DNA from: Neoroseomonas eburnea
Lineage (GTDB): Bacteria > Pseudomonadota > Alphaproteobacteria > Acetobacterales > Acetobacteraceae
Length of the DNA stretch: 64,000 nt
Assembly (NCBI RefSeq): GCF_018129005.1
Contig: NZ_JAAEDL010000009.1
Coordinates: 1 to 64,000 of the forward strand
Direction of reading: 5' to 3'
Part shown: one piece after another, positions 1 through 3,781 of the stretch
How positions within the stretch are numbered: position 1 is the first letter of the stretch
How the letters are laid out: each line of letters starts with the position of its first letter
The notes under the pieces: model-generated
Seen by the model: the letters and a program-made list of their open reading frames with translations, nothing else
What the model was told of the DNA's origin: nothing
Database searches by the model: none
Program-made: the position numbers and the translations under genes

Positions 1-480
1 CACCCGCCCGGCCGAGGCCGCCCGCGCCGCCGCCACCAGGGCTGCCGCCTGCGCGCGCGGCAGCTCGATGGTCGCGTCGGCCGCCAGCGCCAGCCGCACG
101 CCGGCCGCCAGCGCGTCCGCGTGCTGCTCGATCGGCGGAGGGAAGACGTTCAGCCAGTGGGAACCCGCGAGATGCAGCCGCAGCGCGCCGCCCGGCTGGC
201 AGTCCTCGATCCGCACCGGGACCAGCGCGAGGGACTGGGACACGGCGGTGACGACCTCGTTCCTGACATGGACGGAACCCGCCGTGTTGCGCGACAGGAT
301 CAGGACCATGGCGTGGGCGCGGCCGATCGCGGTCAGGATCGCCTCGCCCCAATCGGCGCCGGCGGGCACGTTGCGCGGCGCCATCCAGCAGCGGATGCCG
401 CGCGCCTCCAGCGCCACGCACACGGCATCGGCCGCGGCGCGGTCGGCAGACGCGTAGCTCAGGAAGACATCGTGCGGCAT
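1..480 (-). CDS. TIR-domain protein (3' part beyond window edge)
   Basis: A Toll/interleukin-1 receptor (TIR) domain of the bacterial TIR_2 type. It starts with ATG at 480 and stays open for 160 codons to the left edge, so its C-terminus is not visible. The N-terminus MPHDVFLSYASADR, the box CWMAPRNVPAGADW (residues 31-44), HVRNEVV (71-77) and VRIEDCQPGGALRLHL match the family pattern. Glu75 in VRNEV sits where TIR NADases carry the catalytic glutamate. Bacterial TIR domains often hydrolyse NAD+ or make cyclic ADP-ribose isomers, so NADase activity here is an inference. The gene is divergent from the nucleotide cyclase at 602, with 121 bp between the two start codons. In relatives TIR modules are often found with TPR/cyclase proteins. 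Whether the missing part carries a sensor or TPR domain cannot be seen. Confidence 0.85.
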   Translation of the reverse strand, partial: MPHDVFLSYASADRAAADAVCVALEARGIRCWMAPRNVPAGADWGEAILTAIGRAHAMVLILSRNTAGSVHVRNEVVTAVSQSLALVPVRIEDCQPGGALRLHLAGSHWLNVFPPPIEQHADALAAGVRLALAADATIELPRAQAAALVAAARAASAGRV

Positions 481-546
481 CGGCGGCGTCCGGGGTGATC
501 GTTTCTGGCACAGCGCGCGCCGCGACGCCATTGCATCACCGCCACG

Positions 547-575
547 TTGCCCGCCCTTCGCCGGACACCTAGACT
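547..575 (+). promoter_or_regulatory. candidate sigma-70-like promoter for the cyclase-crp pair
   Basis: TTGCCC at 547-552 and TAGACT at 570-575 are separated by exactly 17 bp, and each matches the consensus at four of six positions. Transcription would start near 582, which fits the ATG at 602 and argues against the in-frame TTG at 575. This is a pattern match only; in DNA this rich in GC such matches are weak evidence. Confidence 0.3.
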
Positions 576-601
576 TGTATCTTTCCCGTGGCCGAGGGCC
601 G

Positions 602-2329
602 ATGTCCGAACCGCTCGCGGAGGTCCTGGCACTGGAGGCCGAGGGCCTTCTCTTTTCCGCCCATGACCGCGCCATGTCGGCGCTGGCCGAACGGCCCGAC
701 GACGTCGCGCTGCGCTACCGCGCCACGCTGACCATCGCGCGGGCCGGGGCCACGGGCATGGCGCTCGACCTCTTCCACCGCCTCCGCCTCGATGCCGAAT
801 CGGACCCGGAGGTCGCGGCCCTCGGCGCCCGCCTGATCAAGGACCGCGCCTTCGAGCAGCCGGCCGCCGTGCGCGGCCCCCTGCTGGCCGAAGCGGCGCG
901 GCGTTACGACGTGCTCTGGCGCCGCGGCGGCGCCGGCTGGCACGGGGTGAACGCGGCCGCGCTCGGCCTGCTGGGCGGCGACCGCCAGACCGCCGCCGCG
1001 ATCGCCGAGCAGGTGCTGCAAGGCCACCGCGACGCCGGCGACTACTGGTCCGCCGCCACCGAGGCCGAGGCCCTGCTGCTCGCCGGCCGCACCATGGAGG
1101 CCCGGCGCGCGCTCGAGGAGGCGGAGGCGCGCGCCGGCAACGACCTGTCCGCGCGCGCCACCACGAGGCGGCAGATGCGGCGGGAAGCGGCGGCGCTCGG
1201 CCTGGCGCCGGGCTTCGTCGACGCGCTGCGCGTCCCCGCCGTGCTGCACTACACCGGCCACATGCCGAAGCCAGGGCAGGACGACGCCGCGACCGAGGCC
1301 GGGCTCGCCGCCGCGCTCGATGCGGTCATCGCCGCGGAACATGTCGGCGCCGCCTTCGGTGGCCTTGCCGCCGGGCTCGACATCCTGGCCGTCGAGGCGC
1401 TGCTGCGCGCCGGCATCGTGCCGACCGCCGTGCTGCCCTGCGACCCCGTCACCTACGAGACCGATTCCGTCGCCCCCGCCGGCGAGCGCTGGGTGCCGCG
1501 CTTCCGCGCCCTGCTGCCGCGGGTGCGCATCATCCAGCTCGACGAACGGCCCTATGCCGGGGACGACCTGCATCTCGCCATGGCCGCGCGCCGGGCCATG
1601 GGCCTCGCACGGCTGCATGCCCGCCATCGCGACGGGCTCGCGGTGCAGGTCACCGCCTGGGACGGCCAGGCGTCGCGCGGCGCCGCCGGGACGGGGGCGG
1701 ACGTGCAGTCCTGGACGGCCGCGGGCGGCCGGTCGATCCACCTCGGCTGGCCGTGGCCGCGCAACGGATCGGCCAACGGCAATGGCCCGCCGGAGGTGCA
1801 GCGCCGCCCCATGGCCGTGCTGTTCGGCGACCTGCCGCGCTTCAGCGCACTCGACGATGCCGGCCTCGCGCGCTTCTACGAAGGACCGCTGATCGCCATG
1901 GGCGCGGCCCTCGACCGCCACCCGTCGGTTTACCGCAATGCCTGGGGCGATGCGGTGCAGGTCGCCTTCGAGCAGGTCACCACCGCCGCCGCCTGCGCCT
2001 TCGACATGCGCGCCGCGCTGGAATCGCAGACCCCGCCGATCCACCCGCGCTTCGCGATCGATTTCGGTCCGCTGCTGCCGGTCTACGACGCCGTGCAGCG
2101 GGCGGGAAAATTCTCCGGCCGGGCCATGACGCGCGCCGCGCGCATCGAGCCGGTCACGCCGCCCGGCCGCATCTTCGCCACCGAGGCCTTCGCCTGCGAG
2201 GTGGCGCTGCTGCCGCGCGGCGCGGGCCTCGCCTGCGACTATGCCGGCCGCATTCCGACGGCGAAGGGCTTCGGGTCACTGCCGCTCTACGCGCTGCGGC
2301 GCGCGGGCGCCGAGGAGGAGATGGCATGA
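602..2329 (+). CDS. TPR / SLOG-like / class III nucleotide cyclase protein
   Basis: A 575-residue cytosolic signalling protein. Residues 1-210 are Ala/Leu-rich helical repeats of TPR type. Residues 214-350 look like a SLOG-type nucleotide-binding Rossmann domain: HYTGHM at 216-221, FGGLAAGLDILAVEALL from about 253, then LPCDP and SVAPAGERWVPRF. The C-terminus (from 404) is a class III adenylate/guanylate cyclase domain with both metal aspartates, D410 in LFGD and D450 in WGDAVQ, and the RAARIEPVTPPGRIF block. The usual Asn before the Ala-Ala-Arg segment is replaced (MTRAARIE), as in the TPR/TIR-associated cyclase group I recall. The product (cAMP or cGMP) cannot be told from sequence. ATG 602 is chosen over the in-frame TTG 575 because of the promoter match. 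Its stop overlaps the crp start by 4 bp, so cyclase and cyclic-nucleotide receptor are translationally coupled. Confidence 0.8.
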   Translation: MSEPLAEVLALEAEGLLFSAHDRAMSALAERPDDVALRYRATLTIARAGATGMALDLFHRLRLDAESDPEVAALGARLIKDRAFEQPAAVRGPLLAEAARRYDVLWRRGGAGWHGVNAAALGLLGGDRQTAAAIAEQVLQGHRDAGDYWSAATEAEALLLAGRTMEARRALEEAEARAGNDLSARATTRRQMRREAAALGLAPGFVDALRVPAVLHYTGHMPKPGQDDAATEAGLAAALDAVIAAEHVGAAFGGLAAGLDILAVEALLRAGIVPTAVLPCDPVTYETDSVAPAGERWVPRFRALLPRVRIIQLDERPYAGDDLHLAMAARRAMGLARLHARHRDGLAVQVTAWDGQASRGAAGTGADVQSWTAAGGRSIHLGWPWPRNGSANGNGPPEVQRRPMAVLFGDLPRFSALDDAGLARFYEGPLIAMGAALDRHPSVYRNAWGDAVQVAFEQVTTAAACAFDMRAALESQTPPIHPRFAIDFGPLLPVYDAVQRAGKFSGRAMTRAARIEPVTPPGRIFATEAFACEVALLPRGAGLACDYAGRIPTAKGFGSLPLYALRRAGAEEEMA

Positions 2330-3045
2330 GCGACACGCGCCTCGCCGAGGATCTCGGGCGCATCGCCCTGTTTCGCGACCTGTCGCCGGCGGGCCTTGCC
2401 CGCCTAGCCGAGGGCGCACGCAGGGTCGCACCCGCGGACGGCGCGCCGCTCTTCACCCAGGGCGACCCGCCGGACGCCGTCTATGCGGTGATCGAAGGCC
2501 GTGGCCGCGTGCGCGTCGGCGCGCCCGATTCCGCCGCCAAGCGCCTGATGGTCGAGGTCTTCCGCACCGGCGACGTCTTCGGCGAGATCGGCGTGCTCGA
2601 CGGCGCCGCCCGCAGCGCGGACGCGGTGGTGATCGGGGAAGTGAAGCTCGTGCGCATCCCCGCCGCCGCCTTCCTGGAGGCCGCGCAGACCGAGCCCAGC
2701 CTCGGCCTTGCGCTGGCGCGGCTGCTCTCCGGCCGGCTGCGCCGCACCTTCGGCCTGCTGCAGGATGCGACCTTCGCGCCGCTCGAAGTACGCTTGGCGC
2801 GCCAGGTGCTCTACCTGCTCAAGGCCGACAGCGTGAAGACCGAGAAGGGCGTGCGGCTCGCCGCCCGGTTCCGCCAGGGGGATCTCGCGGACCTGCTGGG
2901 CGCGACCACGCGCAGCATCATCTCGATCCTGAACGCCTGGCGCGCGGCCAACCTCGTCGCCTACGACACCGAGAAGGCGTACCTGTTCGTGCTCGACGAA
3001 GCGGGGCTCGGCGCCGTGGCCGCCGGCCCGCGGGACGGCGGGTGA
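2326..3045 (+). CDS. Crp/Fnr-family cyclic nucleotide-responsive regulator
   Basis: A 239-residue transcription regulator. An N-terminal cNMP-binding beta-roll (residues about 15-125) carries the phosphate-binding cassette FGEIGVLDGAARSA at 85-98, with Glu87, Arg96 and Ser97 in the positions that contact cyclic nucleotide in Crp. No Fnr-type cysteine cluster is present. The C-terminal winged helix contains RFRQGDLADLLGATTRSII, a Crp-type HTH. Start and stop are joined to the upstream cyclase by an ATGA overlap, so the simplest reading is that it responds to the nucleotide made by that enzyme. The target genes are not known; the divergent TIR gene is an obvious candidate. A general Crp/Dnr-like role is the alternative. 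Confidence 0.88.
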   Translation: MSDTRLAEDLGRIALFRDLSPAGLARLAEGARRVAPADGAPLFTQGDPPDAVYAVIEGRGRVRVGAPDSAAKRLMVEVFRTGDVFGEIGVLDGAARSADAVVIGEVKLVRIPAAAFLEAAQTEPSLGLALARLLSGRLRRTFGLLQDATFAPLEVRLARQVLYLLKADSVKTEKGVRLAARFRQGDLADLLGATTRSIISILNAWRAANLVAYDTEKAYLFVLDEAGLGAVAAGPRDGG

Positions 3046-3088: not shown

Positions 3089-3781
3089 ATGACGATGCGC
3101 CGCAAGCCCACCGCCCCGCCGACGCCGCGCTGGCCGATCACGGCCGCGCTGCTGCTGCTGCTCGCGGCCCCCGCCCTGGCCGACCTGCCCACCGACAAGC
3201 CGCCGCCGCTCGAACGCAACGAGCGCGTGCTGCAGGTGGAACTGCCCACCAGCAAGCCGCCCCCGCTCGAACGCGGCCCGGCCGATATTCCCGGCCCCCT
3301 CTGCACGGTCGAGCACCGGCCGGTGCTCGACGAGGCCCTCGCGGAAGCGCGCCTCCGCATCGCCGAGGCCGTCCGCCTGGTGCGCGAGGAGCCGGAGCAC
3401 CCGCATATCCGCCGCTGGTTCGGCGACGCGCCGCGCAAGGGCATCCGCATCACGCTGGAACTGACGGCGCAGCGGCTGGCGAGCACCGAGGGGCTCGATA
3501 TCCGCTGCAACGACCCTGCCTCCTGCCCGGGTGGACGCTTCGCCTATGCGCGCGAACGGGACCTGGTGCTGGGCGTCTGCCCGCCCTTCTTCCGGGCACG
3601 GATGGACGGCACCGATTCGCGCTGGGGAATCCTGATCCACGAGGCGACGCACATCGCGGCCAATACGCGCGACCACGTCTACCGGCCGAACGGGGCACTG
3701 GCGCTCGCGAAGGAGGACGGGATGCGGGCGGCGGAGAACGCGGACAATTTCGAGTACTTCGTGGAGACGCTGCCGCGGTGA
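3089..3781 (+). CDS. secreted aspzincin-like zinc metallopeptidase
   Basis: A 230-residue exported protein. Residues 1-31 form a signal peptide (basic N-region, then a run of leucines, AAPALA cleavage site). Two copies of KPPPLER lie close together just after it. The C-terminal part has the zinc motif HEATH (184-188) followed by NTRDHVY (192-198), which matches the aspzincin pattern of two His plus an Asp ligand (Asp195) seen in peptidyl-Lys metalloendopeptidases and deuterolysin. ENADNFEYF (216-224) matches the conserved NAD-x-aromatic segment that closes the domain. Function as a periplasmic or secreted peptidase is inferred. It follows the crp gene after 43 bp, but a shared role is not shown. 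Its 3' end runs into a palindromic repeat. Confidence 0.7.
   Translation: MTMRRKPTAPPTPRWPITAALLLLLAAPALADLPTDKPPPLERNERVLQVELPTSKPPPLERGPADIPGPLCTVEHRPVLDEALAEARLRIAEAVRLVREEPEHPHIRRWFGDAPRKGIRITLELTAQRLASTEGLDIRCNDPASCPGGRFAYARERDLVLGVCPPFFRARMDGTDSRWGILIHEATHIAANTRDHVYRPNGALALAKEDGMRAAENADNFEYFVETLPR

Follow-up and report, generated by a model that had tools for sequence, protein, structure and literature searches.

A chromosomal module of a TIR protein, a TPR/SLOG-like/cyclase protein and a Crp-family regulator in Neoroseomonas eburnea and its relatives: a candidate signaling relay

Background

What does a TIR protein do beside a nucleotide cyclase and a Crp-family transcription factor? 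The question is raised by a locus at the very start of contig NZ_JAAEDL010000009.1 of Neoroseomonas eburnea (GCF_018129005.1), of which we analyzed contig positions 1 to 64,000 (hereafter the window). A TIR gene, truncated because the window starts at contig base 1, lies divergently from the gene of a protein with TPR/TPR-S, SLOG-like and class III cyclase regions (TSC), which is followed by the gene of a Crp-family regulator. A preliminary description had regarded these genes as one candidate signaling or defense module, in which the cyclase makes a messenger that is read by Crp, possibly controlling the TIR gene in turn. The layout that it gave, namely a TIR domain with Glu75, a 121-bp divergent gap, the pair of metal-binding Asp residues in the cyclase and a crp gene overlapping the TSC gene by 4 bp, is confirmed throughout. 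What is known of bacterial TIR domains concerns mainly suicidal NADases and makers of messengers for NADase effectors.

A conserved TIR-TSC-Crp module

Across 35 genomes of the genus, the TIR gene was found in 15 and an orthologous TSC in the same 15, the two being divergent neighbors in 15/15 and separated by 121-280 bp. One further genome, G175, encodes a remote TSC (32% identity) that is fused to a Crp. The nearest named relatives of the window locus belong to Neoroseomonas and Roseomonas, and all 13 close-relative loci that we compared (L021-L033; eight titled Neoroseomonas, three Roseomonas and two metagenome-assembled genomes, overlapping in part with the 35 genus genomes) combine TIR, TSC and Crp. 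TSC-Crp is also present at three loci of Acetobacteraceae that are more distant (L034, L035 and L036); at L036 a TIR-NACHT gene lies upstream and the TSC gene is frame-broken.

Profile searches recovered TSC in 26 of 385 genomes of the class (four-row profile) and, with a 17-row profile, in 24 of 398 genomes of the phylum and in 76 of 298 genomes of f13, the family of G424 in the same class. In the class set 6/19 TSC genes have a TIR gene (PF13676) no more than 5 kb away, as compared with 0/149 for the other class III cyclases among the matches listed (Fisher 9.5e-7; 0.07 expected by chance); with four more genomes the TSC count is 6/23. A Crp gene is found at a distance of 1 kb or less for 6/19 TSC genes, as compared with 1/149 for the other class III cyclases among the matches listed. 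The 149 controls are non-family cyclases of the same 19 genomes, taken from the listed part of 203 matches, and the Crp comparison used 110 of the listed Crp matches, those weaker than 5e-8 being omitted. In the phylum set the TIR lies within 5 kb of 11/21 TSC genes, nine of these belonging to the 15 that include the TPR-SLOG part, and in six genomes (G655, G804, G834, G876, G878 and G904) the TSC-linked TIR is the sole TIR found. In f13 a TIR is found no further than 3 kb from the TSC gene at 62/76 loci, five of which are shared with the earlier sets; L214, which has no TPR-SLOG open reading frame, is omitted from the locus counts here and below.

Since the triad recurs with varied gene order and orientation, simple synteny does not account for its linkage. 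In a tree built from 42 TPR-SLOG parts the TIR neighborhood requires nine changes and the Crp neighborhood four; this tree, in which L101 forms a long branch, omits the short L036 piece (N-terminal) and 10 close-relative rows that are nearly identical, and most f13 loci lie outside it. By this conservation of linkage TIR-TSC-Crp is, in line with the preliminary description, a real, conserved module and not a chance association.

Joint loss of the cyclase and of the nucleotide-binding cassette in Crp

The Crp of the window retains the phosphate cassette of cAMP-CRP (cAMP, cyclic AMP) with E87, R96 and S97. We compared the Glu/Arg/Ser(Thr) cassette of 60 Crp neighbors with the state of the neighboring cyclase, which for rows outside f13 was assigned by us from alignments. 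Beside an intact cyclase the cassette is intact in 22/22 cases, 13 of which are near-identical Neoroseomonas-type rows, and in the remaining 38/38 the cassette is gone: in 37 of these the neighboring cyclase is degenerate or lost, and in the last, L171, it has lost a single metal Asp, leaving no discordant case. As the cassette and the cyclase are lost together, the most likely signal for Crp to read is the product of the cyclase. This co-degeneration is the strongest evidence for that part of the preliminary description, and amounts to evidence from sequence on who reads whose signal. One protein of the same genus (L101:4876-7545, genome G175) unites a Crp (cNMP-binding and HTH domains; cNMP, cyclic nucleoside monophosphate) with TPR, SLOG-like and degenerate cyclase regions in a single chain.

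The TIR gene behaves differently, being still present within 3 kb at 40/42 cyclase-lost f13 loci. In the cyclase-less f13 members the SLOG-like residues G253, G258, D260 and E265 are kept in 42, 43, 43 and 40 of 43, and the cyclase region has eroded (0.21 against 0.61 in mean majority fraction). As the TIR persists beside a TSC that has lost its cyclase and kept the core SLOG-like residues, it is thus, by this pattern of retention, linked to the TPR-SLOG part rather than to the cyclase product. Some lineages have lost the cyclase and the Crp cassette and kept the TIR, the SLOG-like part and Crp, the last of which seems to be the constant output there.

The TSC protein and its candidate messenger

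By itself the window TSC gives a weak cyclase match (3mr7, E=0.003) and no match to PF00211 at E<=1; the family profile gives a firm class III cyclase match (3mr7, 1e-14), and PF00211 is detected in 14/17 members. The residues expected of class III cyclases, the metal-binding D410 and D450 and the transition-state R514, are each kept in 35/38 family rows. Class III adenylate and guanylate cyclases of known base specificity have a Lys/Asp(Thr) or Glu/Cys base pair and a transition-state Asn. In an alignment with 3mr7, the canonical Lys, Asp and Asn positions are occupied by Asn446, Lys503 and Thr510, which correspond to neither of the known adenylate and guanylate specificities. The Asn in place of the base-contacting Lys is found in 32/38 family rows (14 of them near-identical) and in 32/33 intact f13 members. 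At this position 20 other class III cyclases from these genomes, hand-picked rather than random, have Lys (16), Arg (2) or Ser (1), with one unreadable and no Asn among the 19 readable ones.

Thr127 of CRP contacts adenine. The window Crp retains its equivalent (T141) and has F142 in place of Ser128, by our by-eye placement, so that the Thr127/Ser128 pair is incomplete; the Crps of L089, L090 and L092 keep Thr-Ser. The adenine-contacting role of Ser128 in CRP is cited in PMC11224242, which also describes a uracil-reading Asn at the E. coli CRP Ser128 position in PycTIR. Since the base pocket of the cyclase is non-canonical and Crp has Phe at the Ser128 position, the TSC messenger in this lineage may be something other than cAMP.

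The label "SLOG-like" comes from a reading of the motifs, which are conserved across the family alignments. No SIR2 or macro match was found in TSC. PADLOC gives no match, whether PycC-type or other, for the window TSC at E<=1 or for 17 family members at E<=1e-3. The family also includes unusual forms: one f13 locus (L183) has two TPR-SLOG open reading frames, L184 has a 987-aa form, and L172-L175 encode SLOG-cyclase proteins of 376-403 aa that lack the TPR part and lie directly downstream of genes for TIRs with a hydrophobic segment.

The TIR partner as a putative receptor

Full-length TIR proteins from nine relatives consist of the TIR domain, a Pro/Ala linker, a hydrophobic segment (by computation in L016/L030, by eye in the others), a second Pro/Ala linker and, at the C-terminus, a domain of roughly 80 aa with a pair of conserved Cys residues. 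Their mean pairwise identity is 91% in the TIR domain, 38-53% in the linkers and 72% in the C-terminal domain. An unrelated partner domain at the TIR C-terminus would have counted against the preliminary description; this hydrophobic segment and small two-Cys domain are what the relatives show, and the window TIR itself is cut. At L031:6221-6592 (also L029:6218-6586) a gene for a small protein with a signal-peptide-like start sits between the TIR gene, which it directly follows, and a gamma-glutamyltranspeptidase gene. The L031 protein is a paralogue of the TIR C-terminal domain (BLASTP 3e-10), and its signal-peptide-like start suggests that this domain of the TIR sits outside the cytoplasm.

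The catalytic-type Glu is present in 16/16 aligned partner TIRs, a residue-level feature of candidate signal makers of the Thoeris type. In f13 a Kyte-Doolittle scan detects a hydrophobic segment in 56/62 nearest TIRs, and a Pfam scan of 11 hand-picked f13 TIRs uncovered LprI, SH3 or YARHG domains in 6/11: LprI in L143, SH3_3 with YARHG in L167, L169, L172 and L175, and SH3 in L174. Others add TPR (L155, L161) or, in a protein without a span, FHA (L162), and no additional Pfam domain was found in L147 and L199. The TIRs of L143:3228-4424 and L144:3249-4436, both with a hydrophobic segment, repeat the divergent arrangement of the window with an intact TSC, and in L143 the LprI (lysozyme inhibitor) domain is located after that segment. 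From this exchange of putative outer domains on an otherwise constant TIR we infer a receptor-like design.

Organization of the locus and its surroundings

The features of the window locus are collected in Table 1.

Table 1. Coordinates of the module genes and associated features, numbered from the first base of the window
Feature	Position	Strand	Remarks
TIR gene, N-terminal 160 codons	480..1	-	TIR_2 PF13676 E=1e-21; Glu75 present
Divergent intergenic region TIR/TSC	481..601		121 bp; ATG starts on both sides
Conserved block TTCTnGCACAG, just upstream of TIR start	503..513		Near-invariant in 14 aligned loci
Promoter-like elements of the cyclase gene	547..575	+	TTGCCC, 17 bp, TAGACT; TAG invariant in 14 aligned loci
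TSC gene (TPR-S / SLOG-like / class III cyclase)	602..2329	+	
TSC TPR / TPR-S region, residues 1-205	602..1216	+	PF20308 E=2e-7
TSC SLOG-like region, residues 207-385	1220..1756	+	Motifs GGLAAGLD...E, AMGLA, AGTGADV
TSC cyclase domain, residues 401-567	1802..2302	+	Metal D410 and D450, and Arg514, kept
Crp-family regulator gene	2326..3045	+	cNMP_binding 6e-17, HTH_Crp_2 7e-9 (Pfam)
M35-type zinc peptidase gene	3089..3781	+	Begins 43 bp after crp

A homologue of the M35-type peptidase follows crp in 12/13 of the close-relative loci, the contig ending first at L028, and it is present in two copies at L027, L029 and L030; its membership in the module is uncertain. No Crp-type palindrome is evident by eye in the 121-bp gap in an alignment of 14 loci, no computed palindrome search having been made. 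Support for the earlier suggestion that Crp controls the TIR gene is limited by this reading to a conserved block without an evident palindrome, and the TIR, retained at nearly all cyclase-lost f13 loci, resembles an upstream receptor more than an effector under Crp induction. A further feature of the gap, considered as an alternative start of the TIR gene, is a conserved ATG 51 or 52 nt upstream of the TIR start (window 481-531). It is in frame with the TIR in the 8/14 loci with 51 nt and out of frame in the 6/14 with 52 nt, where it opens a 20-codon reading frame ending at the TIR start.

The scanned neighborhood is metabolic, with genes for an MFS transporter, dehydrogenases, cytochrome c and a gamma-glutamyltranspeptidase. 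PADLOC, run on 10 proteins of this neighborhood (not the whole 64-kb window), gave no match besides the TIR itself, and no CD-NTase (CBASS) match was obtained among the module genes or scanned neighbors. The defense-island location that the preliminary description wished to see checked thus did not hold for the scanned neighborhood, in which no known defense genes were seen; judged from these surroundings and the relatives, the locus is inherited by descent and sits among metabolic genes. We considered and rejected a mobile origin of TSC: phages gave no match, and plasmids gave three partial ones that cover 28-29% of the query at 30-38% identity.

Possible functions of the module

We give even chances to the proposal that the module is a signaling relay, in which a TIR receptor or signal maker acts on the SLOG-like reader, this on the cyclase, and the cyclase on Crp. 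The TIR is favored as the upstream element because it and the core SLOG-like residues outlast the cyclase and most such TIRs have a hydrophobic segment. Going by its architecture, a TIR anchored in the inner membrane would sense an envelope event through its outer C-terminal domain, upon which the TIR domain with its catalytic Glu would convert NAD+ or another nucleotide into a messenger or dock on its partner. The SLOG-like/TPR part of TSC would receive this signal, by analogy with the ThsA SLOG in Thoeris, a step for which the TIR-TSC linkage and the conservation of the SLOG-like motifs form the basis. The cyclase domain, with its metal sites in place, would then make a cyclic nucleotide, possibly not cAMP, and Crp would bind this nucleotide and alter transcription, the latter step being strongly supported by the co-degeneration. 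Such a widespread chromosomal relay would mean that TIR signaling feeds a normal transcriptional program; it would add a receptor-like class of membrane TIRs, and the ligand of the SLOG-like domain and the product of the odd cyclase would be directly testable. A bolder version, tentative and somewhat short of an even chance, is that the module is a bacterial counterpart of Toll-like receptor signaling: transmembrane TIRs with exchangeable periplasmic sensors, resembling cell-wall-binding and lysozyme-inhibitor domains, would make an NAD-derived messenger for SLOG, which would induce a non-canonical cyclic nucleotide for Crp. This would place two messengers in series and make the output transcriptional rather than suicidal.

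Several observations weigh against the proposed relay. The TIR is missing within 3 kb at 12/33 f13 loci with an intact cyclase, and no TIR neighbor was found for L083-L086, L089, L090, L092, L095, L096 and L099-L101, nor for L128, L131, L132 and L134-L136; nSTAND1 or DUF4062-NB-ARC proteins are alternative partners at L083, L084, L095 and L101. Cyclase-crp pairs that normally lack a TIR would also undermine the module of the preliminary description; the close relatives keep the TIR in 15/15, and the distant L034 and L035 have TSC-Crp without one. Crp is a neighbor at E<1e-20 in just 1/33 intact-cyclase f13 loci (L157 has one further weak match above the cut-off), so that a Crp partner is not obligatory or is located elsewhere. 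Cyclase loss requires only two changes on the 42-row tree, which makes the independent events behind the co-degeneration few, with both in agreement. A profile search of PDB sequences and Pfam with the SLOG-like region gave no SLOG match, and two residues of this region, G294 and W353, decay in cyclase-less members. Finally, the predicted membrane receptor is not universal, as the partner TIRs of L082, L126, L127, L130 and L162-L165 have no predicted span and those of L036 and L091 are STAND fusions.

The principal alternative is the one in the preliminary description, a conflict or abortive-infection module in which a TSC sensor would raise a cyclic nucleotide, and Crp would in response turn on the divergent TIR to deplete NAD+. 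The divergent layout with its conserved intergenic region and the retained catalytic-type Glu fit it, as do the TIR-NACHT, TIR-nSTAND1-WD40 and nSTAND1 partners in relatives. We nevertheless consider it unlikely, as the TIR stays beside cyclase-less TSCs whose Crp has no nucleotide cassette, the order and orientation of the genes are not fixed, and the TIR domain, with a mean pairwise identity of 91% among the nine relatives, is retained by descent; further, PADLOC matches only the TIR among the scanned neighbors and none of the 17 TSC members, and the palindrome expected of a Crp site is not seen by eye. It is conceivable, with a rather slight probability, that TSC and the TIR form an immune pair, with the TIR as effector and the TPR-SLOG part as its direct regulator, and that the cyclase-Crp branch does no more than pass the infection signal on to transcription. 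In its favor, the SLOG-like part and the TIR persist where the cyclase is lost, and STAND NTPases replace or join the TIR in some lineages; against it, the exchangeable outer domains (LprI, SH3, YARHG) of some membrane TIRs look sensor-like and the window TSC has three partial plasmid matches at most and none to phages. Least probable, in our estimate, is an ordinary cAMP-Crp stress switch with the TIR gene as a bystander: the intact cNMP cassette with its T127-equivalent, the metabolic surroundings and the TSC-Crp loci without a TIR (L034, L035, L089, L090 and L092) are in line with it, but the TIR linkage is far above chance in several sets, the Lys to Asn change in the cyclase pocket sets TSC apart from the 19 readable picked controls, and Crp has Phe at the S128-equivalent.

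Relationship to known systems

With Thoeris (ThsB TIR, ThsA SIR2-SLOG) the module shares the pairing of a TIR with a SLOG or SLOG-like partner and the catalytic Glu. In Thoeris, according to PMC11204291 and PMC9503650, TIR-made isomers of cyclic ADP-ribose are read by a SLOG pocket. Here the partner, SLOG-like by its motifs, is TPR plus class III cyclase, not SIR2 or TM-macro, a Crp transcription factor is the candidate output, and the TIRs often have a hydrophobic segment and outer domains. Like Pycsar (PycC with PycTIR or PycTM), as presented in PMC11224242, it has a class III cyclase, a cyclic-nucleotide-binding domain (CNBD) and a TIR in one locus; unlike in Pycsar, the CNBD is on a DNA-binding Crp and not on the TIR (the full L016 TIR has no CNBD match), and the cyclase carries TPR and SLOG-like domains and lacks a PycC match. 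The conflict systems of Kaur et al. 2020 (PMC7159879), in the portions available, share cNMP cyclases, TIR and SLOG domains and occasional CRP-like genes and differ in that no VMAP, vWA or MoxR is found among the module genes here. The triad is not described in the available portions of PMC7159879, PMC8195603, PMC11224242, PMC11204291, PMC10952713 and PMC9503650, and a prior account of TPR-S/SLOG/cyclase proteins is possible.

The resemblance to cAMP-CRP lies in the Crp fold and the E-R-S phosphate cassette, and the differences in the non-canonical base pocket of the cyclase and in the Phe at the S128 position; the recognition helix of the window Crp is also altered relative to E. coli CRP. 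From its domain content the module falls under the definition of neither Thoeris nor Pycsar, and in its predicted flow of information it resembles the logic of Thoeris, from TIR to SLOG, joined to that of cNMP and Crp.

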